Assembly (NCBI GenBank): GCA_034440575.1
Contig: JAOTOL010001477.1
Span: 1 to 64,000 of the forward strand
From: Imbricaverruca yamaguchii
Taxonomy: Eukaryota > Arthropoda > Thecostraca > Neoverrucidae
DNA length: 64,000 nucleotides
Direction: 5' to 3'
Shown: piece by piece, positions 13,370-64,000 of the stretch
Layout of the letters: every line of letters begins with the position of its first letter
Numbering within the stretch: position 1 is the first letter of the stretch
Made by a program: the position numbers and the translations under genes
The notes under the pieces: generated by a model
The model's database searches: none
Seen by the model: only the letters and a program-made list of their open reading frames with translations
Told to the model about the DNA's origin: nothing

Positions 13370-13835
13370 CAGAGCCAGATTAGATTAGCTCCTGTCGGGA
13401 CTGAGCCCAGCTCAGGTCACCTCGGCCAAAACGAGCCCGGCTCCGGTCACTCCTGCCGGGGCAGAGCCCGGGTCAGGTCACCCCTGCCGGATCAGGCCCG
13501 GTTCAGGTCACTTCTGCCAGGACAGAGACCGGATCAGGTCATCCCGAACGAAACAGAGTCCGGTTCAGGTCACTCCTTTCAGGGCAGAGTCCGGGTCAGG
13601 TCACCCCGACTGGAACGGAGCCCGGCTCATGCCCGGCAAAGACAGCTCGGCTGAGGCCACTTCTATCAGAACAGCGCCCTGTTCAGGTCCCTGGTCAGAA
13701 CAACCCGGCTCAGGTCACTTGCCAGGGCAGAGCCTGACTCAGGTCCCATGACCAGGGCAGAGCTAGGCTCAGGTCGCCCGACCAGAACACAGCTCGGCTC
13801 ATGTTTCCCGGCCGGGGCAGAGCCCGGCTGTCTCA
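13370..13835 (+). repeat. Degenerate GC-rich minisatellite rich in TCAGGTCAC, 3' of SAP30L
   Basis: Units of roughly 35 bases read CGGGTCAGGTCACCCC, then TGCCGG-GCAGAGCC. At least seven units keep an exact AGGTCA. The array begins about 160 bases after the SAP30L stop codon, so it may lie in the 3' UTR. Confidence 0.8.
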
Positions 13836-26196: not shown

Positions 26197-29100
26197 GTGA
26201 GCTTTCCGTCGAAATTACTGCACAACTGAGATTATTTATGGTTCCATGGAGCAACATGTAAGATGCACTTTTCCAGTGTGCACCCGTTTTGCATAGGTCT
26301 TTCTGGACCCTTGGTACAATTCAGAATAATGGTACTGCATGACTGACGCAGTCGGTGCGCCCCTAAATCCAAAGGCTCTGGCTGGCGGCGAGATTAAGGG
26401 TACACAATAGGGCAGTTGAGAAAGCATAGCTGTGGAGGGAAAAAACGTTGTTTTACAGAATACACCGAGTGACTTTATTACGTGTAACTTCAGGGCCAAA
26501 AAGTGTGTAGACTGGACAGAGATTGGTGCTACAAATCACTTGCTACAGAGATTGGTGCTACAAATCATTCTTGAATGGAGAGGAGCTCTTGTCAAAGCCG
26601 GAAGGGGGAGCTACATTGCTCAGTTGGTTATGGATTGGACCAAGGCTGGAATTAGCCGCCCGGGTAGTTCGGTTGGTTAGAGCGCTGGCCTGCACTGGTC
26701 TCCCCTGTCCTGTCACACAGGGTTCGAATCGCTTCGCGTGCTCGCATTTAGCCCCCGGCCGGGGGTGTCAGAGTTGGCAGCTGGACGAGCTACCGGGCGG
26801 CCGTGTCGGTGCATTGACGGCACGTTAAACTTTCGATCAAATTCTGCCGTTGAACTGGAATTCATGGGTCGGGTGGTGGGGCCAGGGTTCACGCAACAAG
26901 CTCTGCTTAGCAATATAACCCTGGTTCCTAAAGCCACCCCAGCAACAACTCGGATTAAATTTATTTATTAAAAAATGTCCCGTTTTAACAAGTAGGCGCA
27001 GACTCAACCTACTGTGAACCGCTGCTCTCAGGAGCATTTGGTTCACAGTGAACCATCGTACCGTGATGGTTCGTTGGGTGGAAGGCGGATGGTTCTTCGT
27101 GAACCACGGTGCGATGATTCACGGTAGGTAAACCATCGCATCGCCCAGACACGTCCTCACGCTGAACCCTTGTCCACACCTAGCCCTACTAGTGGACCAT
27201 CCGCCTCCCGAATGAATCTCCGTCTACGGCGGGTTTGTCCACCTATCGTAAGCAGCCATCCAATGTCAAATCTATTGATCAAACTGCCATCCAAAGTGAA
27301 GATTGCCGTACAGTAGTGTAACAAAATTGTAGTATAGTGGATAGTGTCGTTGATTAGTGTTGTTGGAAAATTGTGTTTCATTATTCCCATCTTTACGAGC
27401 TACAGCGAGTGTATTATCGTGCATATATGAAATAAGTTTATGTGGATGACTCAACCAAATCCGGCCGCACCCCGCCAGGTCCGACATCCTCGTCTGTGGC
27501 ACCGTCCGTGGCACCGTTCGCGGCCACATCAACAGTGGCCGCGACTGTGCCACCGTCCGTGTTAACAAGAGCAGGATACCTCAGCCTGCAGCACTAGAGC
27601 TCGGATTGGATTGGATTGTGACTTTACGACGCACTCAGCCGCTGAGGCCATATCGCGTCGCCTGCCCTTCACCCTGGCAAGAAGGGCGGACATCGCGGGG
27701 AATCGAACCCTGTACCTCTGGTCTCCCAGACGCTTAGTTTAGCCACTGAGCTACCGACGTCCTTTACTGGAGCTCATGTCCTCGCTCGTCCAGCACCCCG
27801 ATTGTACATCACTGCGCAGCCTTAGAGGGTTGTATTGTTGAGGATGAATATATTTACTATTGATACCGCTCTAATTATTCCTCTAGTTTCAAAAACTCGT
27901 TTCTATGTTACAAACGTGTGCCAATTTCATTAGTCAGCTACTCGATATTGATCATATAGAAATTATAAATATCGATTAGTATTAGGTATATTAATATTAG
28001 ATAGACCATCACTGACAGATGTCAGTGATGGTGACTTTTGGACCATTAAATGGCGGAGGCGATACGGTCCGTTACAGGGCAACGATTTATTCCTTTACAG
28101 GGTGGCAATATGGTCCGCTGCAGGGTGACGATTTGGCCCGTTGCATGACGGCGATTTGGTCCGTTGCAGGGTGACAGTGTGGTCGGTTGTAGGGCAGTGA
28201 TGTGGTCCGGTGTGGGGTGGCAGTGTGGTCGGTTGTAGGGCGACGATTCGGTCCGGTGCGGGGAGGCAGTGTGGTCGGTTGCAGCTGTAGTAATGTGGTT
28301 CGTCATACAATGGTAATATGATCTGTTACAGCGGTGGTGTCACGCGTGAACCAGAGTGTCGCTGACGGTAGCTCGGGCCGTCTGTTCGCCGTGGTGCACC
28401 TGGCCGGAAAACAGACCAAGGTGACGGCCGGTGACCTGGTGGTGGTGCAAGGCTACTGGTCTCCCCAGATCGGAGAGAGGATCCGACTGGATAAGGTGAG
28501 AGGTCGTGCAGGAAAGGTGAGCGACTGTCGGCGAAGGGGTCAGCAGGTCGGGTTCAATTCTTGCGGCCACTTATATTCCATTTGTGCGTGGCACCCAGGT
28601 CAGTCTGTGCGGCCAGGTCCTGCTGGTGGAGAACACCCAGTTCAGTTTACGTCCCCAGGTGCTGTTGTACTCACTTCAGTCCGTCTGCACAGGTTCTGTT
28701 GGTGGGCGGTGCCAAGTTCAGTCTGCTCGGCCGGCCCGTGCTTGAGCCGGGGCTGGTCACTGTAGAGGCCACCGTTGTGGAAAAGTCTCTCTCCCATACC
28801 AAGACTATTTTTCGAACTCTCAAGAGGTCAACCTACAAGCGCATCAACTGTAAGAATCGATCCTTCGGACAGAGACGGCGCGTGTTCTGATGTATTTTAA
28901 TTTCGGGGTTGTTTTACGCTCCACCAACCAGGGCTCATAATAGAAACTGTGCAAATCACGAATTGTCTGCGCTAATCGTGGCCTAGTACACCAAGTATCT
29001 TACCGGAAAACAGCCCGCTGTCACTACTGTACACTGCATGTAATTACTTTAACAGTACCGCCCTGCATCCTGCACACGTGACCTTGCATTCCGTTTGACG

Positions 29101-29699: not shown

Positions 29700-30280
29700 A
29701 CCCCTGATTTGAGCAAACAAAAGAGACGCTCAACAACACCCAATGCCCAGATGATAACACCACGCGGAGCGGAATTTGTTAGTTAAGATATGTGTTAAAT
29801 ATTTATATGGACAAAAGTAATAAAATGCAACAGTTGTGGCCAGCATCAAACCCATTTACCTCCAGTCCAGACGCAGCTGTATGGATGGATCAGAATATGC
29901 TACACAGATCTTTCTTCTTTCTGGTAAATAAAATTCAAGTCACTCCCGAGTATTCGTAAAATAGTGTCACGCCATACATGGTGCCCATTATTGCGTATAG
30001 TGTAGAAGTCTGTGTCAACAGATTCGGCCGGTGCAAACGGCCTGTACTCAAGCAGTCGGCGCGTGTTTGGTCTGTCACAGCCCCTTGCACGTCCGCTACG
30101 GCGAAGCCCATACTATCCAATGGCAGTGATCCATCAACAAGTGCTCAAATGAACGCACCTCCCGTTGCTGGCTATGCTGACGAACAGGACGGATATAAGC
30201 GGTTGGGCGCGGGGGACGCTGCGGACGCCACACTGTCTGACTATGCCACGCCGCCAGCTGACGGACTGACCGAGATCGGC
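29700..30280. other. Intergenic stretch
   Basis: No conserved exon. A 232-codon plus-strand frame from 29978 runs into the next minisatellite but shows no family motif. Confidence 0.4.
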
Positions 30281-30282
30281 CG

Positions 30283-30525
30283 CACCCACTGCATCTGGAC
30301 CCGGCGGCCAGAACCTCCTGCGCCAGCTGACTGGCAGCCTGAGATCGGCCGCACCCACTGCATCTGGACCCGGCGGCCAGACCCTCCTGCGCCAGCTGAC
30401 TGGCAGCCTGAGGTCTGCCGCACCCACTGCATCTGGACCCGGCGGCCAGACCCTCCTGCGCCAGCTGACTGGCAGCCTGGGGTCGGCCGCACCCACTGCG
30501 TCCGGACCCAGCAGCCAGACCCCTC
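30283..30525. repeat. 69-bp minisatellite, about 3.5 copies
   Basis: The unit GATCGGCCGCACCCACTGCA, CTGGACCCGGCGGCCAG, CCTCCTGCGCCAGCTGACTG repeats three times with few changes. The 69-base period keeps all frames open, which explains the long overlapping ORFs on both strands. Confidence 0.9.
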
Positions 30526-30539
30526 TGACCGACCATACC

Positions 30540-31010
30540 GCTGGGGCTGTGGACGGACTGATTCCATCGACTGTAGCTGTCGGCCGGTCACTCCATCTGC
30601 AGCTGTCGGCCGGTCGCTTCATCTGAAGCTGTCGGCCGGTCACTCCATCTGCAGCTGTCGGCCGGCCACTATCTAGAGCTATCGGCCAGTCACTCCATCT
30701 GAAGGCGACGGCTGGCTCACTCCATCTGCAGGCGACGGCTGGCTCACTCCATCTGCAGGCGACGGCTGGCTCCTTTCTAGAGCTATCGGCCAGTCACTCC
30801 ATCTGAAGGCGACGGCTGGCTCACTCCATCTGCAGGCGACGGCTGGCTCACTCCATCTGCAGGCGACGGCTGGCTCACTCCATCTGCAGGCGACGGCTGG
30901 CTCACTCCATCTGCAGGCGACGGCTGGCTCACTCCATCTGCAGGCGACGGCTGGCTCACTCCATCTGCAGGCGACGGCTGGCTCACTCCATCTGCAGGCG
31001 ACGGCTGGCG
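30540..31010. repeat. 26/27-bp minisatellite (CTCCATCTGCAGGCGACGG)
   Basis: A diverged block of TCGGCCGGTCACTCCATCTG units (30575-30700) passes into a nearly uniform 27-bp array of GGCGACGGCTGGCTCACTCC plus ATCTGCA (about eleven units). On the minus strand each unit contains ATGGA|GTGAGC, a plausible 5' splice site. On the plus strand each has TCTGCAG|G. Confidence 0.9.
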
Positions 31011-31122
31011 CGGGAGGCGGGCCGTGCCCGCTGCCGGCCATGAGAGCCGGGCTGGCCGGGCGTCACCAGCGGGGTCAGCGACATGTTGCACACCGTCTTT
31101 ATGGTGCCGGAGGACACCGCTT
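30983..31122 (-). CDS. Candidate coding exon, possibly a further E2F7/8 C-terminal exon
   Basis: After a GTCCATTGCAG acceptor the minus strand reads AVSSGTIKTVCNMSLTPLVTPG and then a basic stretch, ending LQME before TGA or before a donor GA|GTGAGC inside the first array unit. The SLTPLVTPG motif resembles TPETLVTPG in the exon at 32413-32571. It needs an upstream phase 1, which would fit if that exon spliced at a weak CGCG|GTTAGC just before its stop. It could equally be a separate gene or a chance frame. Confidence 0.35.
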
Positions 31123-33748: not shown

Positions 33749-36700
33749 CGTGTGCGCGCGTGTGTGTATGTGTGTGTATACATCTTGTGCACGCGCGATA
33801 TACGTGCTTTCAATTTTCAATATGAATGACATGCTTCCAAAACATCATTGTGAACTGTATCTCAAGTAAACCAGTGAGCGAATATAAACTCTAATCCGCA
33901 TTACAAGGGTAGCCCTAACGTCAACAGGTGATACCAGAGCACTGCCTTATTTAGGTCAGCAGCGATACATTATTCGTGGAATCGGGTGCAATCATTCGTT
34001 TTTATCGCTCAAATCACTTTCTCAACACTGAATTGACAACCCATTCCAAGAATGATCGACATCCTGTTTCTTGGCTGTGTTTATGAAGACTACGTGCCTA
34101 ATGTCTAATAGTACCTCGTTCATAAGCTTCATACTTATACTCATCATAACGGATCATGATCCCCGAACATACCCCGGCACAACTCCAGGTAAGGGGATTG
34201 TCCATGATGTTGTCTGCTATGCACTACCAGTGTATATCCTGGGCACTTTTATCGTTATTATTAATTCAAGACAACCCTGAGTTATATATTTCCAAACAAA
34301 AGAGAAATGCACATGCAAGAAAACAATTGGCTCACAATTTTTTTTGAACAGCCCAAGCGGTATTTTAAGCAATATCGCTTCCATGGCGAAGTTCGACATC
34401 CTATTGTACTCGTTTCGACATCTCGCACGTAAAGACCATTATTTTTTACGCTGGATCAGCACCATCTAGATTTCGGCAATTCAGCATAAAGCTGGCCAGT
34501 GGAGGACCAGTGGACAAGATAAAACGTCGAAGACATCTTTAAAACCACCACCGTGAACTGCTGGAATATTGACGGGGTGGTCGGCTGGTGCTCCTACCTG
34601 CTCGCCGCCGGCGGCGGCCGGTGGGCCGGTGCGCACCACCGGCACCAGCTGGTACGCCACCAGCTGGTGGTGCGGCTGGCGCGGCGCCAGCAGACGCTGC
34701 GGCCGCGCGGCGGCGCGCAGGGCCGCCTCCAGTCGGCTGCCGGCGCCGGCCGGACCGTCGCCGTCGCCGTCGGCCGACGGCTGGTGGGCGGCCGCCTCGC
34801 GCACGCAGATCTCCTGACTGGAGCCGTCGCCCGAGCGGATCAGGATGCGCTTGATGCCGAGTCGGCTGAGCTGGCTGTGCTGTGCCGGCGACAGGTGGCC
34901 GGCCGGCCGCGACCGCTTCACCTCTGCCTGCGCGCGCTGCACCTCGGCTAGCCGCCGCTTCAGCACGCTCTTGCCGCGACTGCCGTCGATGGCCTGCTCG
35001 AAGAGCCGGTGCCGCTCCAGCGCCGTCACCTGGCAGATGTCGTCCAGCGAGGCGGGCCGCGGCAGCGCGAGCGGCTCTGCGGCGGGCCGGGCGGCGTCAC
35101 GGTCCTCACAGGTGGGTACATGTGGCAGGGGATACACATGCGGGGACATCTCAGATAGAACCTCCGAGTACCAGGTATATGGATACACGGGAACATCCGG
35201 GATAAGGAGACTCGAGGTCGTCGGGGAGCAATGACAAGCAGCCATGATATCAAGGGTATGACAACACTGGAATATTAAGGATCTTCTTATGGTCACAATA
35301 TCGGAAATACGCCGAAGATCAGAAACCTCAGACACAGGAAGGCTAAAAACTCACCCAACCACCAGGCACGGAACCATATGCACAACATAAAAAGAGGGTG
35401 CGCCATAGGCCTGATACAAGTTCGGTATATACAGAAAATTAGAACCTATGGGGACAGATGGAACATCAAGCCAATAACCTAAGTGATTGCCAACAAGAGT
35501 ATAAAAGTGGGCCGCAAGCAAATCAGATATGGGGAGCGCGTTACCGAAAAAAAGGCAATGATATACATGCCCATATCCAAAACACTTACGCATTTCACCA
35601 GTCACTGACGGATCCAAAGGTGGGGGGGGGGGCATTCCGGCCATGCCCCCCCCCGAAACGCCTTAAAGGGGCCATCATGTCTTTTGCCCCCCCGAAACCA
35701 AAAGAGGCGAAAGATGATTTAACCTAAATTAAAATACGGCAACTTTGAAAATAGCCCTTCGGGTGAAAGAATCTCCAATTTTAAAGGTATTTTCATAATT
35801 GTTTAGAAGCCAAATATGGTAGCATAGTAGATTCTGACGCACATCGAGGGTTCTATGCTGTTTAAGTTCTGCTTACAGCAAGAGTTGACAAAATCAGCAG
35901 TTTCATTATTCCTTAGTCAGATAGCTTCATGAATTTAGTTTAGCCAGTAACGGGCAAGCAAACCCAGTGAGCCAGATTTCGAAAGCGAAATTTGAACAGG
36001 ATGTTTTGTGCGTGTGTCCAATTAAGCCCAGTTGAGCAGCATGCTTCGTATGTTGATGTTGTGGGTCGCTAAGATGAAGAGACAGGCTACGTTGGCTGAT
36101 TTTTTTTCTAAAAAATAATAGCAAGAGGAGGTATGTAGGTATTTAGATCTTGAATAAGAGATAACTGGTGGGTTCGCAGGTAAGGGAGATTCGGGTGGTA
36201 GGACCGGGCTATCAAACTTTAAGGGTTTTATTGCAGTTTAAGGCAGTTATAAATTATTCGTGAAATAGGGTGGAATGTACCACCTATTGAACAATGAGAA
36301 GACATCCTTCCCAAACAACTATCGACATCTTGCTTCTTGATGTGTTTGTGAAGTCTTCATGACTCGTTTCTAACCGTGGTTTGTGTGTAAGTATCATGCT
36401 TATGCTTACCATTATAGATTGTGATGTATCTTGTACCGAACGCGATTTCAAGTAGAGATTACTCATGATATGGTCTACTGTTCAAAATAATTTGCTGATA
36501 GTATGCCATTCTTATCATTGTCATTAACATAAGTATCCCTATAATAGGTGTATCCAAAAAATATACGAAACAGATGCACATATACAGGCTATTGGCTCAA
36601 AATTGAGCTTCAATGATTTAAACGATATTGTAAACGTCATCACGTCCATGGGCAAGATCGACATCTTCGTGAACTTCTTTCGAAATCTCACACCTAAGTT

Positions 36701-39700: not shown

Positions 39701-42700
39701 AGTGTCGCCAAGAACACTTCCCTTTGCCAATACTTGGGAAGCGCATCAGCGCCGATTTTAGTTGTCTGGTGCTGCGAATTTTTTTCTTTAACGGCCCCAA
39801 CTCGAATAATGTTCGGTCGATTTCAGTTTTCTGGTTTTAAACAATGCGCTGGTCATTTCTAAGCAGGTACGCAAGGAATGGCGTAAATGGGCCGGTAAAA
39901 TCTTGAGTTATGTGCGAAAAACCAGAGGGGTGGGCGGATTTCACCCCCTCCAGGGCGCGTGCTAAGCTAGCCTAACCTCGCATTGGAGATGTAATCATGG
40001 GTTGATAATCAAATGGGGTATTTTGATAGATGGAACATTTTGTTGTTCTTGTTGTGGCACGATAATTGTCTAAACTAAGATGTCTAGGATAAAAAATGTT
40101 GGGAACCAAAGGTGCATATTGAAGTATATGTCTGTCCTTATTTTCAGTCTGGATTCTCCATCTCAACCTTCCCGTGGGGGGTAGTTTCTGCCTCCAACCT
40201 CTCCCGTCTCCATCTTCCGCCTGCACCAGAAGTCGGCCCCAGCCCAGCCCCTGCCTGCTGAGATCCAGAGTCGCACCACCCCAATGAGACAGATCAGCTT
40301 GCTTGCTGTTACTTCAAGGAAGAAGTTCACATTAACAATTTTCTCAATAATAAGTATCTTGGAGACAGCTGCTAATGTGGTCTTGTAAAGAGCAGATCGG
40401 GGTTTTTGCACTGTGAAAAGACTGGGGATGCAACAAATATGCAACCGGTTTAATGGTTCTAGCTTACCATGCAAAAGATTGACAACTTATACATACTTTT
40501 TCAATTATTTCCTTACACAAAGGTAAGCCCGCTGTTGATGCCAAGATAATTTGGCACAAGCCAAAATAATGCTGCTGGCAAAACAGTGCATTTGCCAGCA
40601 CTACCAGTAAACCAAAAATAACGACAGGATGGGCCCCCCAAATCCATCCCAACCTTCATGCAAATCCTAGGCACGCCATTGGGGGAAGGGGCGGAGGCTG
40701 ACGACCAAATCCGAAAGTTGGCCCCCCCAAACCGGTGGGCTAGATCCGCCAGTGTCACCAGTTACTCTCATGCCCCGTAGCCTACAGCACTATTACTCCT
40801 CAAGCTCGCAATTCCCTTCAGAGACACAGCTATTTTAAACACCCGTGACCCTTCGCGCCAATAAAGCTACTCTCCGCCACCTCACTCAACACTAAGAAAG
40901 GCACCATTGCTCAGTATCGAGCCACTCAGAGAGGCAGCTCTACTCACTGGAGTCATCCCACATCGGTGCACCCTTGTTCGGCCGCCGTGACAGCGGCGTA
41001 CTCGATATCAACGAGTGACGCGACCGCTGCGAATCTGAAACACATCACACGTGTCACCATCCTTCTGAAACACATCACACGTGTCACCATCCTTCTGAAA
41101 CACATCGAACGTGCCACTGTCTCTCTGAAACATACCATATGTATCACAATTCCACTAGAACACACATGTCATCCTCACACTGGTGTGTGCCACAGGTTTT
41201 ACTGTCCCACTGGATCCCATCACAGGTTTCGCTGACCCACATCACATGTTTCTCTCTTCCACTGGCACATGACACATATTTCACTGGACCAATGTCCCAT
41301 ATCACATGTTTCACTGTCCCACATATCAGGTTTCGCTGTCCCACTGGCATACGCCACATGTTAGATACAATGTTAGCCGTCAAACACAATGTTAATGCGG
41401 ACATCGGGGGATCTTCAGTAAAGAAAGAAAACTGACAGGTCCCTGATGCCATTCAAGGACTCTGAAATATGCGCCCGCGACAAGTGCACTCGGATGTTCA
41501 CTAGTGTGTGTGCGAAGGATATACTTACAATATGAGACCCAGTCTACATAAAATAAGGTGCGAAGTGTATACATTAAAGTTAGCTTGCCTTCAGACATTC
41601 ATTTCCTTCCCACGCACATAGATATATTGCGCACATTGCTACTTTGCGCATTGCCTTCTAGACATATGCTCTTGATTTTCATTCACCATAGACGGAGGCC
41701 GCCAGAGCCACGCGGCCCGAGCACGCCCCCGATCGCTACGCCAGTCATAGCATGGCGAGGCTCGGAACCTTTTCCTGAACGTTGACGTAGGACCCCAACG
41801 CCGAAATTATCGGTAGATGTTCATATTTGAAACGATGGGCGATGTGCCTGGCATAATTTTGCCACCATTCGAATTGAGGCCCGCAGGTTTCCTTCCTATT
41901 GTTTAAGAACATTACACTTGTGGGCGTTGAATGGAAAGAATGGATCCATACCCGTGCATTTCTCCTACACAATTTTAGCGTGGTAGAGCCGATGTTGCTT
42001 GATATTGATCAAGGCTGGAACCTTATTTATGTGGTGTCGCCGTTCGGCGGCCCTTCGGATCTTCTGGGCAGCAAGTGTCGGCGCTTGACGTGCATCGAGG
42101 CATACCCGAATCTCAATCATGCCTGAAAGCTTCATGTCAAAAGGTAAAAAATGACAAGGTTATATATCTATAAACGTAGTCGAGTGTGGCATCAGAAGAC
42201 AGCAGATTTTATGTCAGTTTATTTGAGACCATTTGACACTATTCATTCGCTAGACGATTCGCTAATGTAGAACATCGACATACAATTTAAAGGAACACGA
42301 TGTGATAATTCGAGACACAAAACCTGGGATTGAGTGAAAAAAGTGGCAGTGTTACACCTTCATGGAAGTTATTAACACGTGCCCTGGAAGGGGTGGGGGG
42401 TGCAAATCCGCCCACACCTCCGGGTTTTCGTAGATAACTCCAGATTATATCGGCCGATATACGCCATTGTTTGTGTACCTGCTTATAAATGGCCGGCGCG
42501 TTGTTTAAAGTAAGAAAAACGAAAACCGACCGAAAATTTTTCGAGTTAGGGGTCGCTAAAGTAAAAAAAATTATCTCAGTCAAAAACAAATATCGGCGCT
42601 GATGCGCTTCCCGTATATTGGCAAAAAGGAAGTGTTCTTCGCAAAACTAGCGACTTGTTTGGTGTACATTGTTATGCTATATTGTTTCAAAGTCATGTCA

Positions 42701-45700
42701 GGTCACCGAGGTCAAGTCAGGTCAAGTTTATGACAGGTTAACACACGCCCTGGAGGGGGATGGCGAAATCCGCCCACCCCTCCGATTTTTGGTACACAGC
42801 TCCATATTGTTCCAGCCGATATACGCCATTTTTGCGTACCTACTTGGCAATTATCGGCGCGTTGTTTAAAGTAAGAAAAATGGAAGTCGGCGAACTTTTC
42901 AAGTTAGGGGGCCGCTAAAGTAAAAACAATTCGCAGCACCAGACCACAAAAATCGGCGCTGATGCGCTTCCCGTATATTGGCAAAAGGGAACTGTTCTTG
43001 ACAACACTAGCGACTTGTATGATGCATTTTATAATGTCATATAATTTAAGTCATGTTAGGTCGCCGAGGTCAAGTCAGGTCAAGTTCATGACAGGCTAAT
43101 AGAACCATACTTGGTCAACTGGAATGTTAGTAAAAAATGCAAATGCCTGTCATGCGATCACTTTACATGTTACTCCCTACACATTCCGAAATCTACAGTT
43201 TGTCCTTGTGTGCCTAAGCGTTTCATTACTTTATTCATGTATTTCACTCCTTTCCTTGCGAAGCCGATTGTGCCGAACCGCCCAACGGAGCAATCGGGTG
43301 GGCAGCCCGGTTCCGGCAACTGGAGCAGGTAATGACCTGCTAATGTGCTCCTATATAGGTGACCCAAGGTCAAATGGTGGATCCGTTATCTGTATTGCAT
43401 CATTATTCATGTCCAAAGCATTATTAATGCCAATTTTGAAGTACTTAAACACAATAACAGCGATCCAGAACATTGACAAGCCAATCCACGCAAACCAGAA
43501 AATTTTGCTATTTTGACCTCATTTGACCTTGAATATATTGCCCTAAGGTCATGCAATTTGCACACAATAGAGTTCACTATCGTGCCCATTCACCCTGCCA
43601 ATTTCGTTGCTCTAGCCTCAGTAGTAGCCGAGATCTTAGTCGGAATCGGCCCCCCCCCCCCCTCCAGTACGCGTAATTTTCCGAGGCCCTCCAGGGCGCG
43701 TGTTAAAGATGATATCAAAATACAGAACGACCAATTTCCGTTTAGTTAAGAACGTTGGAAATTATTAGCCCATCACAAAGATGTATGAGGCGTTTTAATA
43801 CAAGCTATTGAGTGGCCAATTGCTCCCATTTCACCTTGAACGCAAAGTGACAAATTTAAATTATTTGATAATAAAATGAACATCATAAGAGAGCTTGATT
43901 CAATGCTGTTTACATTTTACCATCGGAAATTACATGCATCTCTTTTATGGACTAGAATATAGCATAAATAATAAGAAGCCCACCCTGGTTCTGTTCCTTC
44001 ACAAACCCACCACCAGAGCGGTGCCACCGGTATCATGTCCGCTCATGACGCTTAACGCACTTTCCTACTGAATTAAACCCCGGTCAACGGCGATAGCCTC
44101 TACAGCAGGGCCACGTAGCAGGCGGCCTGTCGACACTCACCCCGGTCCACCGCGATAGCCTCCACAGCGGGGCCCGTGTAGCAGAAGGCGGGCCGCCGAC
44201 ACTCACCCCGGTCCACCGCGATAGCCTCCACAGCAGGGCCCGTGTGGCAGAAGGTGGGCCGCCGACACTCACCCCGGTCAACCGCGATAGCCTCCACAGC
44301 GGGGCCCGTATAGCAGAAGGCGGGCCGCCGACACTCACCCCGGTCCACCGCGATAGCCTCCACAGCGGGGCCCGTATAGCAGAAGGCGGGCCGCCGACAC
44401 TCACCCCGGTCTACCGCGATAGCCTCCAAAGCGGGGCCCGTATAGCAGAAGGCGGGCCGCCGACACTCACCCCGGTCCACCGCGATAGCCTCCACAGTGG
44501 GGCCCGTGTAGCAGAAGGCGGGCCGCCGACACTCACCCCGGTCCACCGCGATAGCCTCCACAGCGGGGCCCGTGTAGCAGAAGGCGGGCCGTCGACACTC
44601 ACCCCGGTCCACCGCGATAGCCTCCACAGCGGGGCCCGTGTAGCAGAAGGCGGGCCGCCGACACTCACCCCGGTCTACCGCGATAGCCTCCACAGCGGGG
44701 CCCGTGTAGCAGAAGGCGGGCCGTCGACACTCACCCCGGTCCACCGCGATAGCCTCTACAGCGGGGCCCGTGTAGCAAAAGGCGGGCCGCCGACACTCAC
44801 CCCGGTCCACCGCGATAGCCTCCACAGCGGGGCCCGTGTAGCAGAAGGCGGGCCGCCGACACTCACCCCGGTCCACCGCGATAGCCTCCACAGCGGGGCC
44901 CGTGTAGCAGAAGGCGGGCCGCCGACACTCACCCCGGTCCACCGCGATAGCCTCCACAGCAGGGCCCGTGTAGCAGAAGGCGGGCCGTACCGACCAACTC
45001 ACCCGGTCCACCGCGATAGCCTCCACAGCGGGGCCCGTGTAGGCAGAAGGCGGGCCGCCGACACTCACCCCGGTCCACCGCGATAGCCTCCACAGCGGGG
45101 CCCGTGTGGCAGAAGGCGGGCCGCCGACACTCACCCCGGTCCACCGCGATAGCCTCCACAGTAGGGCCCGTATAGCAGAAGGCGGGCCGCCGACACTCAC
45201 CCCGGTCCACCGCGATAGCCTCCACAGCGGGGCCCGTGTGGCAGAAGGTGGGCCGCCGACACTCACCCCGGTCCACCGCGATAGCCTCCACAGCAGGGCC
45301 CGTGTAGCAGAAGTCGGGCCGTCGACACTCACCCCGGTCCACCGCGATAGCCTCCACAGCGGGGCCCGTGTAGCAGAAGGCGGGCCGCCGACACTCACCC
45401 CGGTCCACCGCGATAGCCTCTACAGCGGGGCCCGTGTAGCAGAAGGCGGGCCGCCGACACTCACCCCGGTCCACCGCGATAGCCTCCACAGCGGGGCCCG
45501 TGTAGCAGAAGGCGGGCCGCCTGCAGGCGCCGCTCGAGTGTTTTCCGACCAGGCCGACGCTCTGCAGGATGTTGGCGATGTCGTACAGTCGGCGTACCTT
45601 GGCCTTGTGCTGGCCATCCGGCGAAAGACCGTCCTGGCCCAATAGCGCGCGCGCCAGCACGTCCTGACTCAGGCTGGGCTGTGAGCCGACTGTCAGTCAG

Positions 45701-48700
45701 GTGGTCTCCGACATTGCCAACCGCAGATTGGAGCCGTACTGAACGGGAAATGTGTTGGGGCAAGACAAGCGGCTCTACGGCGTGTCTGCGCCACCGTCAC
45801 TTAACGAGACAATGTGCGCTTAGTTCGAAGGGAACAAATATCCAAAGAAAACATTTGTTAGCCAGCTTAACGTGAGTTATGCTGAAAGGACTTTTGAGTG
45901 CTTAACAAAAACTCAGCGTTTCTTTATGCTGGTGCCTATTGAGTCTGCATGCCTGCCGAGTTTTATCTGTACATCACACACAACTTATTGAGTGTTCATC
46001 AACGTTTTAAAAATAAGAATCCATCTCTGAGAAGAAACAAATCGAAAGAGGTAATCAGCGTCTTGGGACAAGCATAAACACAACATGCTGGCAAAAACAG
46101 CAGCATGCCTACTCATCATCGGCTTTGAATGGTCGCTCGTCAGACCACTGGATTGCATGGTACTCAGACAAGGCATACTGACGAACAGATTAAATGCATC
46201 AACGTGGACTTGAGAACTCCACACCGGTGCACTGCACGTTTCACTGCAGGGTACACTTCGTAGCCACATGCAGCTTACGGGTCCCCAAGCCGTAATAATC
46301 AGTCCACACCGGGTGATTCAGACCTGACCTCGCCAGGTGCCGGCCGTCGCCTCGGCATCGCCACGGCCGCCGGCACGTACCCGGTCGCTGACGAGCAGCA
46401 GCATGACGAACTTCTGCGTGAGCACCCCGAGCGTGCGGTCGCCACGGTCGCGCGGCGTCAGACACTCGGCGTCGGCGGCCAGCGGCGTGCGTGGTGTGCG
46501 CGGCGTGCCGGGCGTGCCAGGCGCGGCGGCCCACAGCGGCAGCGCCGGCTCCGAGGCGCCGCGCACGAGCGACGGCACGCGTACCACGTCGGCCGCCTGC
46601 AGCGCCGCCTGCAGGTGCGACGGCAGGTCCAGCTGCAGCGCCAGCCCCTTCAGCTGGCCAAGCGTGGCCACCAGATCGCGCTGGCCGATCCACGAGTACC
46701 GGTTCTTCTCCAGCTGCGGCGCGGCCAGGGTGAGTCAGTCGGTACCCACTGCATTGCAGGGTGAGGACGACATCCAACTGACAGGTGAGAGACGGGAGCT
46801 TATTGGAGGAAGACAGGCCAGTATTTATGAACCATATGTCTAGGCAAAGAAAGTAAAATTGCAACGGAAAGAAAATTGTACTGTTGACGATGAGTTGCTG
46901 CTCATTTGAACTACAGGATGGAATACGGGCCAGGAGTGGATTTGTTGAATTTCAAACGAGCATATGAAAATTAGTTTGTGGTGGGCCGGCTGCACTGCGC
47001 TCAGAAAGCACTTCAGGATTTTGGGTTTCCCGGCTTGAGCACACACAAACACATACGCACACGCACACACACACATGCAGGCAGACACACCACGTACATT
47101 CACGAAATTAAACTTATTCTTGTACTGGGCAGCTGACCCATCCGAAAAATAATGAATCTTTTTCAAGTTCGGGACTATGCCTTTCACTTTCGGTACAATG
47201 TGCTGCAAGAATGTGTACACAGCGACGGTGTCATGCTTCAGTTCGTTTGATAACACGCAAAAACTGTGGCATTCAATCTTTCCAGCCTCTCGCCAATAAA
47301 CAACAAACGGATGAACGGTACACTGTGGTGCGTTCCAGTGATATGACTGAATTTCGTCTTGAACTACAAAAGTGTAGTTTTCTGAAAAATATAATATGAT
47401 CAGTGCTTCATGCTCAGGTAGCTGCTTTTTTAGATCGTCGAAATATTTGCTTTGATGCTGACTCGTGAAATGATGCCGAGTAAGTGTCACAATGGCGTCA
47501 GACAGTTTGTCAAGAAACTCGTCCATAGGAAGAACAATTTCGGTCAAAGTGCAACGATCCGTGCTTAGCCACCGACTAAATCTGACTTCGTCCACCAAGT
47601 CTGAGATTTCCGCTGCCTGCGCATTTAAAGTGTCGATCAAATATGACGTGACACCGTCCTGACCTGGACAGTTTTCACACTTTTGCAGCATACAGGCTTC
47701 CCTCCCGACATCACCAACCGCGTGCTTCAACAGGTCCTTGTAGGTAATGTCTTATAAGCCCAGAGACGCTAACATTAGCTTCACGTTCTGGTGATAGCAA
47801 CATACACAAACCGTATGAGTGCCGTTGCTTCCCAACAGGACACAGTGTTTGGGGCGGAGGCTGGCGAACTTCGAAAACCCAATGCGCGGGTTGCTACCGT
47901 TCTCTTTATGAAGTTGGTAAATTTCCTGCAAATTACCTAAAATCAAACGTTTCTGCTTCTTTACACCCCATTCTCATCTCTTACCGTCACATAGTCTTTT
48001 TTTCCATGACATTTTCTACTCACTTCGGGGCCAGGGGGGCTGTCACGTCTCCCATATCATCCTCCCGGGACGCGCGTCTCCTTTGTTGACATCCCACGCT
48101 CGGCTCCCCCTTCCCCTCCCCCTCCCCCCGGCAGGCGTATCGCGAGGCAGCGGCAGCGCGCGCACCGGTCCGGTAAGCGCAGCGCCCGCATTCACCGCAT
48201 TTGATTCGTCTTTCCAAGTCGATAACCACTTTTTTATTTATGTTTCTAGGGTAAAAAACTACGCTCTTTCATATGAAAGTGAGAAAAAATACGATATCGG
48301 AGGGGAAAATGTTTTTATTTCTTTTCAATTTTTTATTTGGCTAGAGTCGGCAAAAATTACGTAATGAAAGTTTAAATGGTGGCATAGTCATATTCTTCAA
48401 TGTTTTGTCTTCATTTTGACGTATAAATTTGTTCAGTTACTGAAAAATGACTCGGAGAAAATTAGCACCGAAGATAGTCATGTTAGTGCAAAATGAAAAA
48501 ATTATATAGTTCATAACTAGAAAACGGTAAACCTAAGAAACTTCAAAATGGCACAGGCGTGTTCAGCGATGCTGATAACCCTATAGAACCATTTTCATCA
48601 AAATCTGAGGTGTGATGGTGCAGGTCACATGTCGATTTGTCGTGGAATGGCCCGTACGCGGGAGATGTTATATTTTTCGGCACCCTTGTCGGTCTTATAC

Positions 48701-51420
48701 ACACACTTGCCCTCAGACTGCCAGCCATGGCACGCTGTGCACAAGGCGGGGCTGACCCGATATCCTGAAGACGGGGAACAGACGACCATCCCGCTAGCAT
48801 GGACCGAGGCCGTACACCCAGGGGGTGCCACCGGACCGAACGATCTGCTTTATGGTAAGCCAGGTCTATGAACCCGATGCCTCGAGAGTTATTCGGGCAG
48901 CGTTACTCCCATGGCATGGAGAACATGTCCAGAAATTGCTGTATACTGGGTAGGAGCCGAAGGGCAGTCGTCACCCATGCCACAATACGAGACCCAAGCT
49001 GAAGACCACCTAACATCAGCATGGCAACGAATGTATCCCGGCCAACCTCCAGATGCTGCGTGACGGCGGACCGCACGTCTGGATCAACCCGACCGCCGGA
49101 GGATCACCTGGGAGTCACCGAACCGTCAAACTCCCAAACTAGGTCACCAAACCTGAAGATGGTGCGACACGCACGACGGAAATGAAGCGCTCTCAGAAAA
49201 GGCACGAGCCTGAGATTGCGGCCATGATGATCTGGCGTTTAAGGGTGCGCCAATTACACGATATTTTGCACTAGTTGATGGTGACGATGGAAGTAAATCA
49301 CTCGAACCGACCGTTCAATTTAACATGAGCTTCACGGAGGCGCGCGACCTGGCGTCAAGAGAGCACGTGAAAGTAGCGACAGCACCCGGTATTCTCGCTG
49401 GAATAGTGAGATCAAGGGTGCGGTTTAAGCCCACGGCACCTGCTCTGAAGCAGCCATGCAGCGCGAGCTGCATCGGCCATGCCGCCGGAGGCTCCTTCGA
49501 CTACAGTGCATATGACACAGCCCGGCACCCACCCCACCCCCAAGTCAGGAACCAATGGATCTGCGTGCCGGAGAACCAATCGTCGCCAGGTACATCACGC
49601 TGACACTCAGAGATGACACCGTCACGCAGACGAGACACACCCACACTGCACCTGATGGAACTGACAGAAATCGGGACTCAACTGATCTGTTGAGACTATC
49701 AATCAAGCCCGACGAAAACGACGATGGAGCGGGCCATCCGGTCACGGTACAAGCACAGGGACAGTAGTGCGAGACAGCAAACGCCTGGACACCCCAGCGT
49801 GACATGCACACCTGGCGTTGGAAGACAAATTAAACTAGGGTGGGTAGCATCGTGGATGACTGATATCGAGGAAGACCATTCTCACCTCGTCGAGACGTCG
49901 CGCTTGTGCCATTTCTCTATCCAAGGCACAAAGAACCAAATTACGTCAGACCAGGAGCGTGAACCACCCCGTCCTCCATGTGGCCCGTTTACAGATGCCC
50001 AGCAGACTTAGGGATCCCCCCCCCCCCTCCTGACGTAATGGACAGATCTGGATGGGTCGATGAGAAGAGCTTTCTCCTTCAGCAGTGAAGGAGAAGCACT
50101 GCAAGTCAGTTAAGTCTGCAATCCAATCAAATGTCCCAGTGCGGGACATTTGGATGGATTCCAGCCAATTCGATCAGAACTGCAGATGATTGGAATGTAC
50201 ACCGGTAATTTCCGTCATCACGACAGTGATTTAGTGCGATTGGTGACACTGTATGGAAACAAAATGTTCCAATTAGCAATGATAGCAGTCGTTCGGTACG
50301 TTTAAAGCTCTGCAACCAGTACTCCGCCAGTTTAAAGCGTTCAGCATTCCCAGAACGTTGCCTACCAGATGACACCACAAACCACGTGGCACATACTTAC
50401 CGACTAAGTTTATGCTTGGGATGCTAGGGATGAGCAGTTAGGGATGAGCAGTTAGGGGTCAGCAGTTAGGGATGGGCAGTTATGGATGGGCAGTTATGGA
50501 TGAGCAGCTAGGGATGAGCAGCTAGGGATGAGCAGTTAGGGATGAGCAGCTAGGGATGAGCAATTAGGGATGAGCAGTTACGGATGAGCAGCTAGGGATG
50601 CAGTTAGGGATGAGCAGTTAGGGATGACCAGTTAGGTTGGTTGGTTATCAGAGTTTATGGGCGCATCGACTACATCGGTCATGCAGCACCCATGATTAGC
50701 AGTTAGGGATGAGCAGTTAGGGATGAGCAGTTAGGATGAGCAGTTAGGGATGAGCAGTTAGGGATGAGCAGTTAGGGATGAGCAGTTAGGGATGAGCAGT
50801 TAGGGATGAGCAGTTAGGGATGAGCAATTGGGAATGAGCAGTTAGGGATGAGCAGTTAGGGATGAGCAGTTAGGGATGAGCAGTTAGGGATGAGCAGTTA
50901 GGGATGAGCAGTTGGGTTGGCTGGTTATCGGAGTTTAGGGGCGCATCGACTACATCGGCAGCACCCATGATGCAGCGCCCATGATGAGCAGTTAGGGATG
51001 AGCAGCTATATCTGCCACTCGACATTTCATGATCGAATGCATGGCATTATGTTAACGTAGGCCTCCGCTACGTGTCAATATCCAACATATTAATGATATG
51101 AATGATCTTACATGTTCAATGCTTCCTCTGAGTGGATTATCAGTAAACAGCCTGACATTGGTGAGAGCAACATCAGGAATGGAATTAGCTTGGATGAGCT
51201 AAGTATGCCTTACCTTAATGGAGAAATGCAGACTTTCAAGTACGTTTACTATGTCATAGATTCTTCTTCGTTCCGTGCCAAGCATAATTGCAGTCTCGTC
51301 TAGGGGAAGGAACATCTGAATATTGTTTTCAACTTCTAATGGGTATATTTCTAGGAACCTGAAAGGAAGACCAACTGTCATCATTATGTTCTGTCAAGCA
51401 CTGCATGTATGCATGCATGA

Positions 51421-57404: not shown

Positions 57405-57795
57405 AGGTCGCCACTTGTGCGAAAATGGTTGGCATTGGCAACAACCTCCAGGGCCGGGCCTAGCTCTCCCCGCACAGGTGGCCAGTGGCAACAACCCCCG
57501 GAGATTGGGCCCAACTCTCCCCGCACAGGTGACCAGTGGCAACAACCTCCAGGGCTAGGCCTAACTCTCCCCGCACAGGTGGCCAGTGGGAACAACCGCC
57601 TGAGATAGGGCCCAACTCTCTACACAGATGGCGAGCGGCGGTGACCACCGAGACTTTGGCCCAGTTCTCCACGCACAGGGGAGAGTGGCAACCCCCGGAG
57701 GCCTGTGCCCAGCTCTCCCGGCAAAGGTGGCGAGCGGCAGTCACCACCGGGACTTGGGCCCAGTTCTCCACGTACACGCGGAGTGACAATAACCA
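57405..57795 (+). repeat. About 50-bp minisatellite (CACAGGTGGCCAGTGGCAAC)
   Basis: Seven or eight units read CGCACAGGTGGCCAGTGGCA, ACAACC-CCGG, GGGCCCAACTCTCCC with increasing divergence rightward. Each unit has CACAG|GTGG. Confidence 0.9.
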
Positions 57796-58334
57796 CCGGG
57801 GATTATGAAGAATTGGAAGAAAGTCCATAGTATATGCGCCCACAACACATAGGAACGACACAGTACTTGTGGAAGGACGAATGTTTGAATTGCTTCGGGC
57901 AGGGTGGGGGGTACACAACAATCACCCCGGATTTTCTATTCATGGTTTTTTCCATAGAAAATAAGTCCGTTTAGCTCAAACTTTAGCTGTGTACTTGGAA
58001 CGCTACCAACAAAAACAGAGGCTAATTGTTTTAGTCGCACTAATTCGGCTGCCTGTCGCGACTTTACCGTGGTGTTTTGCCCTCGTTCTACCCCTACGTC
58101 TAGCCATAACGTTCAGTTCTGACATTCGCCGAGCATGGTATCACATGACGCTCATTGTATTCTTGAGTAATATTCGCACCGAGTTGAACACAGGGCTGAC
58201 TAGGACGAAATCAGACTATTCCTGCTGCAAACGCGACACAGCCCAACACAAAATACCGCGTCACCAATGTTCTCTAGGAAGCTCCACATTCATGATTGGC
58301 TCTCTTCAACAGCAAAACACAGGCGTTGTCACCA

Positions 58335-63044: not shown

Positions 63045-63600
63045 ATGACCTTCACTATAATACGATGTACCCAGGGGACCACTTATATCTATAACACACC
63101 CCAAGAGCTGCCACTGACACGCACCACACCCAGAGCACCCCTATGGCCTGTACCCTCAGGGCACCGCCTATACCTACAACACACCCCGAGAGCCGCCACT
63201 GACACGCACCACACCCAAGGCCCCTTATGGCATATACCATACCCAGAGCACCCTTATGGCCTGTATCATACCCATAGCTTCCCTATGGCCTGTACCATAC
63301 CCAGAGCACCCTTATGGCCTGTACCATACCCAGGGCACCGCCTATGTCTGCGCCACACCCAGAGCATCCTTATGGCCTGTATCATACCCATAGCACCCTT
63401 ATGGTCTGTACCATACCCAGAGCACCCTTATGGCCTGTATCATACCCAGAACACCCTTATGGCCTGTACCATACCCAGGGCACCGTCTATGCCTGCAACA
63501 CACCCCGAGAGCCGCCACTGACACGCACCACACCCAGAGCACTCTTATGGCTTGTACCATATCCAGGGCATGGCTTATGACCTGTACCATTCCCCGGACA
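63045..63600 (+). repeat. About 30-bp minisatellite (CATACCCAGAGCACCCTTAT)
   Basis: Roughly fifteen units of GGCCTGTACCATACCCAGAG plus CACCCTTAT, interspersed with a longer unit ACACCCCGAGAGCCGCCACT plus GACACGCACCACAC. Confidence 0.92.
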
Positions 63601-63801: not shown

Positions 63802-64000
63802 CTGTCGACACAGCAGCAGCGTCAGTCACATCAGCGTCTGTCACAGCAGTAGTGTAAGTCACATCAGCGTCTGTCACAGCAGTAGTGTAAGTCACATCAG
63901 CGTCTGTCACAGCAGTAGTGTAAGTCACATAAGCGTCTGTCACAGCAGTAGCATAAGTCGCATTAGCGTCCGTCACATCAGCAGTATAAGTCACATAAGC
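63802..64000 (-). repeat. 33-bp minisatellite of 3' splice site units before the ELOVL exon
   Basis: Five or six minus-strand units read ACGCTGATGTGACTTACACT followed by ACTGCTGTGACAG. The last unit, GACGCTGCTGCTGTGTCGACAG, is the acceptor of the ELOVL exon. The array runs off the window. Confidence 0.9.

Follow-up and report, generated by a model that had tools for sequence, protein, structure and literature searches.

The exon encoding the second DNA-binding domain of an E2F7/8-like gene in the arthropod Imbricaverruca yamaguchii ends in a 66-bp minisatellite that repeats the exon end together with its 5' splice site. The regular units span an exon-intron boundary and carry a splice signal, the combination that characterizes the 'mirages' of amphioxus. 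We consider it probable that this is a mirage-type minisatellite in which the first donor is normally used, the protein comes from the ancestral junction and all further copies are intronic. The window, the whole stretch of 64,000 nucleotides analysed here, contains further arrays at exon boundaries of this and other genes (Table 1).

Table 1. Positions in the window of the E2F7/8 exons, of the tandem arrays at exon boundaries and of the neighbouring exons
Feature	Position	Strand	Remarks
Eight exons of the E2F7/8 model	53053-52429, 51358-51214, 46713-46381, 45678-45465, 41034-40948, 35076-34598, 32571-32418, 31122-30983	-	
Exon E4, DNA-binding domain 2	45465..45678	-	ends VEAIAVDR+G, phase 1; last 58 bases are repeat unit 1
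Exon E5	40948..41034	-	partner of donor 1; located via the Amphibalanus orthologue
Exon E6	34598..35076	-	
Exon E8, last coding exon	30983..31122	-	ends ASRRLQME-stop; Amphibalanus protein ends RASRRLQMD
66-bp minisatellite	44077..45521	-	21.9 units; regular unit is exon end + GTGAGTGT
21 donors of the 66-bp array	G of GT at 45464, 45398, ... 44140	-	
Units 8 and 9	44925..45060	-	clustered small indels; donors 9-21 thereby out of frame
Degenerate terminal unit	44077..44132	-	shortened, without GTGAGT; ends GGGGTTTAATTC
30-bp minisatellite	41034..41132	-	3.3 copies (TRF); four TTTCAG acceptors
27-bp minisatellite	30575..31009	-	TRF rows 30581-31009 and 30575-30984
33-bp array of 3' splice sites (GTGACTTACACTACTGCTGTGACAG)	63809..64000	-	ends 8 bp from the ELO-like exon acceptor
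ELO-like exon	63801-63649	-	Pfam score 19.5 bits against a curated cut-off of 27 (E 7.7e-4)
29/85-bp array	63072..63594	-	begins about 54 bp past the ELO-like exon donor
23/46-bp array, CCGTTGCAGGGTG-like units	28058..28303	+	stops short of an L21-ribosomal-protein-like exon by 28 bases
Imperfect duplication, about 80 bp apart	28590..28760	+	copies the acceptor and beginning of the following L21-like exon (28693)

The gene looks like E2F7/8, in agreement with the original prediction. The product of exon E4 matches the E2F8 entry 4yo2 of PDB (E 1.6e-19), and Pfam PF02319 matches two stretches of the joined-exon product (E 3.1e-28); the atypical E2Fs are distinguished by a pair of E2F winged-helix DNA-binding domains on a single chain. 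The best homologue among 237 matches from 7996 candidates scored is LOC122382290 isoform X1 of the barnacle Amphibalanus amphitrite (E 4.7e-93, the next match having 3.8e-29), with 278 of 442 alignment columns identical to the product of the window. The eight-exon model, which joins donor 1 to the acceptor at 41035, gives a single open frame down to RRLQME-stop, with AG at all eight acceptors and GT at seven donors. Its E4-E5 junction aligns with the Amphibalanus protein without gaps, and the annotated orthologue contains a single copy of the repeat sequence. A direct junction from 45464 to 35076, as first proposed, fits in phase, yet the orthologue shows exon E5 between the two positions, and this junction was rejected. 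Between exons 2 and 3 of the gene lie a 303-residue open frame on the minus strand (46840-47751), which has no Pfam match and is perhaps a mobile-element remnant, and a 14-bp array with 35 copies of TAGGGATGAGCAGT (50425-50913).

Each regular unit of the 66-bp array, read on the minus strand, consists of 58 exon-like bases followed by 8 intron bases. This bears out the predicted composition of the unit from an exon end and an intron start, with the donor repeated in each copy, and unit 1 is indeed the real coding end of exon E4. TRF reports 94% matches and 1% indels along the array. The interval 44089-45678, in which the feature had been placed, mixes the exon with the array. GTGAGT donors number 21 (unit 1 and 20 more, each in a unit ending GGTGAGT), one fewer than the 22 first counted, the last unit being shortened. 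The core is GGG/GTGAGT in 20 units and CGG/GTGAGT in unit 8 (the slash marks the boundary); the core of donor 1 from -3 to +6 is common to 19 further donors, and one more differs at -3. The 14-mer CGGGGTGAGTGTCG occurs 20 times in the window, every time inside the array, against 0 expected. Units that are not neighbours, such as 5 and 20, have sequence variants in common, in the mosaic pattern expected of an evolving array. The units had been taken to share one frame, but unit 8 contains compensating one-base indels, which throw its interior out of register, and unit 9, at 70 bp, exceeds a regular unit by four bases. As a result of these indels, donors 9-21 shift the frame or meet a stop.

The intron between E4 and E5 (45464-41035) bears splice-site repeats at both ends. 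The TTTCAG acceptors of its 30-bp minisatellite are spaced 30 bp apart, with the G of AG at 41125, 41095, 41065 and 41035, and the last of them is the acceptor of E5 (GATGTGTTTCAG/ATTCGC). The 30 bases before 41035 are identical to the 30 before 41065, and the two outer copies have diverged. These units comprise the intron end with its AG and almost no exon sequence, so they correspond to the definition of a mirage only in part. Donors and acceptors make 84 pairs (21 x 4), and the frame is kept into exon 6 in eight of them, namely donors 1-8, each with acceptor 41035 only; the other 76 lead to a premature stop or a frameshift. The expectation that later donors add 22-residue repeats thus holds in frame for donors 2-8 and fails for donors 9-21. 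Instead of n-1 copies for donor n, up to 21, at most seven units can be gained in frame: since the interior of unit 8 is out of register, six extra copies are faithful and the seventh is garbled.

In the explanation we favour, a tandem duplication would have captured the GC-rich end of exon 4 with the 8 bases that begin the intron; gene conversion or unequal exchange would then have extended the array on its intron side until it reached about 22 units. The copies come after the original donor, which would leave the ancestral junction intact: donor 1, with its GT at 45464, spliced to the last acceptor (41035) would yield the conserved protein, and the remaining copies would stay intronic. Donor 1 is thus presumably the donor mainly used in vivo, to judge from the sequence. 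Donors 2-8 may leak low-level isoforms with extra 22-residue units past the DNA-binding domain, and use of donors 9-21 would be non-productive. The orthologue-fitting junction is consistent with regular mRNA splicing that the array would leave undisturbed. Some observations speak against this reading. The 20 further donors are nearly equal to donor 1, the next only 66 bases away, and could well be used, as two downstream repeat units are in human IFI6. In addition, the units have a length divisible by three, and their variants lean towards synonymous changes, which weak translation would likewise produce.

The 18 regular units considered for variation (2-7 and 10-21) display 12 variant types in 25 events. 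Seven of the 12 types are synonymous in the coding frame, a weak excess over the 3.9-4.2 expected (p 0.05-0.07). A hand count finds 5 of 10 changes synonymous in the potentially translated units 2-7 and 11 of 15 in the untranslatable units 10-21; constraint is no stronger in the potentially translated group. The slight synonymous bias is what exchange with coding unit 1 would produce. Unit positions 51-65, the donor block, carry no variant type, a weak sign of conservation (p 0.04 for a region picked after the data had been inspected).

The hand count weighs against the view that regulated or stochastic choice among donors 1-8 lengthens E2F7/8 proteins by 0-7 22-residue repeats behind the second DNA-binding domain. 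Donors 1-8 are all in frame with the last acceptor and seven of their eight cores are identical, that of unit 8 differing at -3; moreover, the human IFI6 (6-16) minisatellite is described as having multiple splice donors, with two downstream units in use (PMC4526556). We nevertheless regard such a choice as unlikely, given that synonymous changes are no more frequent in the translatable units than in the untranslatable ones, that the orthologue has a single copy, and that the amphioxus cases are described without splicing disturbance (PMC3087553, PMC3902484). A query with the six-extra-repeat isoform, scored against the 7992 candidates (of 5.8 billion proteins) that have most words in common with it, returned only the one-copy orthologue and no protein bearing the repeats. 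The originally envisaged variation of protein length by donor choice is without support here, and its possible range is donors 2-8.

Less probable still is a poison array, in which donors 9-21 and the three upstream acceptors would divert transcripts to premature-stop products cleared by NMD, and array length would tune E2F7/8 dosage. The 76 unproductive pairs and the presence of decoys at both ends of one intron agree with such a role, but similar arrays lie at the stop codon and by the ELO-like exon, where a decoy role cannot be the reason, and a 281-nt segment covering about 4 of the 22 units folds into no unusual RNA structure (z +1.94; folding was equal or better in 194 of 200 shuffles). 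Inflation of one or a few units by mis-assembly is very improbable: the clustered small indels of units 8-9 resemble a possible consensus problem, but the units differ, share variants mosaically and are accompanied in the window by other arrays of the same kind.

The last eight codons of E2F7/8 and its TGA stop (GCCAGCCGTCGCCTGCAGATGGAGTGA) are reiterated past the stop codon in the 27-bp minisatellite, where CAGATGGAGTGA has 13 copies counting the real one, nine of them exact 27-mers. The corresponding end of the Amphibalanus protein identifies the first copy as the coding one. The 30-bp acceptor array and the 27-bp stop-codon array plausibly stem from the same process as the donor array. Just past the stop-codon array lies a 69-bp array (30252-30522; 3.9 copies, 93%), which shows no similarity to the E2F7/8 coding end (70 of 300 shuffles reach the score).

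Amphioxus mirages are tandem repeats across exon-intron boundaries, found at both 5' and 3' ends, with AG/GT signals in many units (PMC3087553). They are unstable in length and, by RT-PCR, apparently have no effect on regular splicing, and their copies could serve as cryptic splice sites (PMC3087553). Further cases are given in PMC3902484. The genes concerned are Adh3, the globins BflGb6 and BflGb9, troponin C and PGBD5, with 6 and 3 units in two haplotypes of BflGb6 and 2-7 units by assembly in PGBD5 (PMC3087553, PMC3902484). The E2F7/8 repeats resemble them in spanning the boundary and in affecting both 5' and 3' boundaries; unlike these cephalochordate cases, they occur in an arthropod, number 21 donors, lie at both ends of one intron and are joined by a stop-codon array in the same gene. 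As in IFI6, a minisatellite offers several donor sites, though IFI6 is a human, unrelated gene in which two downstream units are reported in use. A 1995 paper by Turri reportedly describes the IFI6 minisatellite as supplying several donor sites. Human segmental duplications contain internal tandem repeats at exon-intron boundaries, where minisatellite expansion alters intron structure (PMC2812944). Minisatellite expansion at such a boundary is common to both systems; the human repeats belong to recent primate paralogues with inferred novel introns, whereas the E2F7/8 junction is kept and matches the orthologue. The titles and abstract starts of the literature searched yielded no boundary-spanning minisatellite for barnacles or Cirripedia, which does not establish absence from print. 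As far as these searches show, the arthropod host, the 21 donors, the repeats at both ends of one intron and the stop-codon version are new.

Minisatellites in the window tend to adjoin exon boundaries. An edge lies at most 60 bp from a boundary, a limit set after the data had been inspected, in 6 of 11 arrays, against a null mean of 0.48 for random placement over the window (p 5e-05) and 1.44 for placement near genes (p 0.0012); the null permits up to 60 coding bases beneath an array. With limits from 10 to 200 bp, p stays at or below 0.0034 against the whole window and 0.025 near genes. The 11 arrays were kept from 44 TRF rows (period at least 20, length at least 80 bp, overlaps merged), which left out shorter arrays and the 14-bp array, and the boundaries came from 12 exons, leaving aside two of SAP30 whose ends were unset. 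A second test, resting on the same arrays, scans the 450 bases adjacent to each boundary (169 at one ELO side) for copies of the boundary. Significant copies were found at 5 of 24 boundaries and for 11 of 150 control 50-mers (Fisher p 0.050; p 0.12 without the stop codon), a borderline outcome; a control counted as significant on one null of 100 draws, whereas two nulls of 200 were applied to each boundary. The failure of 19 of the 24 boundaries marks a tendency, not a rule.

Outside E2F7/8, copies of boundaries in this one window are clear at the ELO-like acceptor and at one L21-like exon start, and weak at the remaining sites of these two genes. The 33-bp array resembles the acceptor of the exon that we take to be ELO-like (score 47, 0 of 300 shuffles). 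The 29/85-bp array shows weak similarity to the donor region of the same exon (4 of 300 shuffles) and is not significant in the boundary-copy test. The L21-like gene has Pfam scores of 22.9 and 24.4 bits, with a cut-off of 27. The acceptor of its first-mentioned exon, CTGTTACAG/CGGTGG, is weakly similar to the 23/46-bp array (11 of 300 shuffles), and the duplicated start of the next exon is matched by 0 of 300 shuffles.

A wider reading of these arrays, which we put forward tentatively and consider possible though somewhat doubtful, is that, independently of cephalochordates, this arthropod lineage seeds minisatellites systematically at stop codons and at both 5' and 3' splice sites. Function would be kept as new copies fall on the non-coding side, and the coding exon end would be in concerted evolution with the intronic copies. 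If so, the 21 near-identical donors and four acceptors of the E2F7/8 intron would amount to a natural experiment on spliceosome choice among equals. The case is extreme: 21 donors, of which 20 have an identical core, compete for a single productive acceptor, the last of four. The rules by which position governs 5' splice-site choice thereby become open to direct test. The case extends the mirage-type minisatellite from cephalochordates to an arthropod and suggests a rule of survival, by which an array can persist when its copies fall on the non-coding side of the signal they derive from. Should the enrichment at boundaries hold genome-wide, a mutational mechanism acting at exon edges would be needed.

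Other repeats and genes of the window are as follows. Arrays of 61/30 bp (13389-13829) begin about 180 bp past the stop of a SAP30 gene on the plus strand, identified by Pfam zf-SAP30 and SAP30_Sin3_bdg, and show no similarity to the SAP30 exon end (189 of 300 shuffles reach the score). On the minus strand, positions 403-1401 encode a TNP-like RNase H domain (PF21787, E 4.9e-19), a transposase fragment. A 50-bp array (57436-57804), with no adjoining exon recognised, has on the plus strand a unit with CCTAACTCTCCCCGCACAG/GTGG, a good-looking branch point and 3' splice site.
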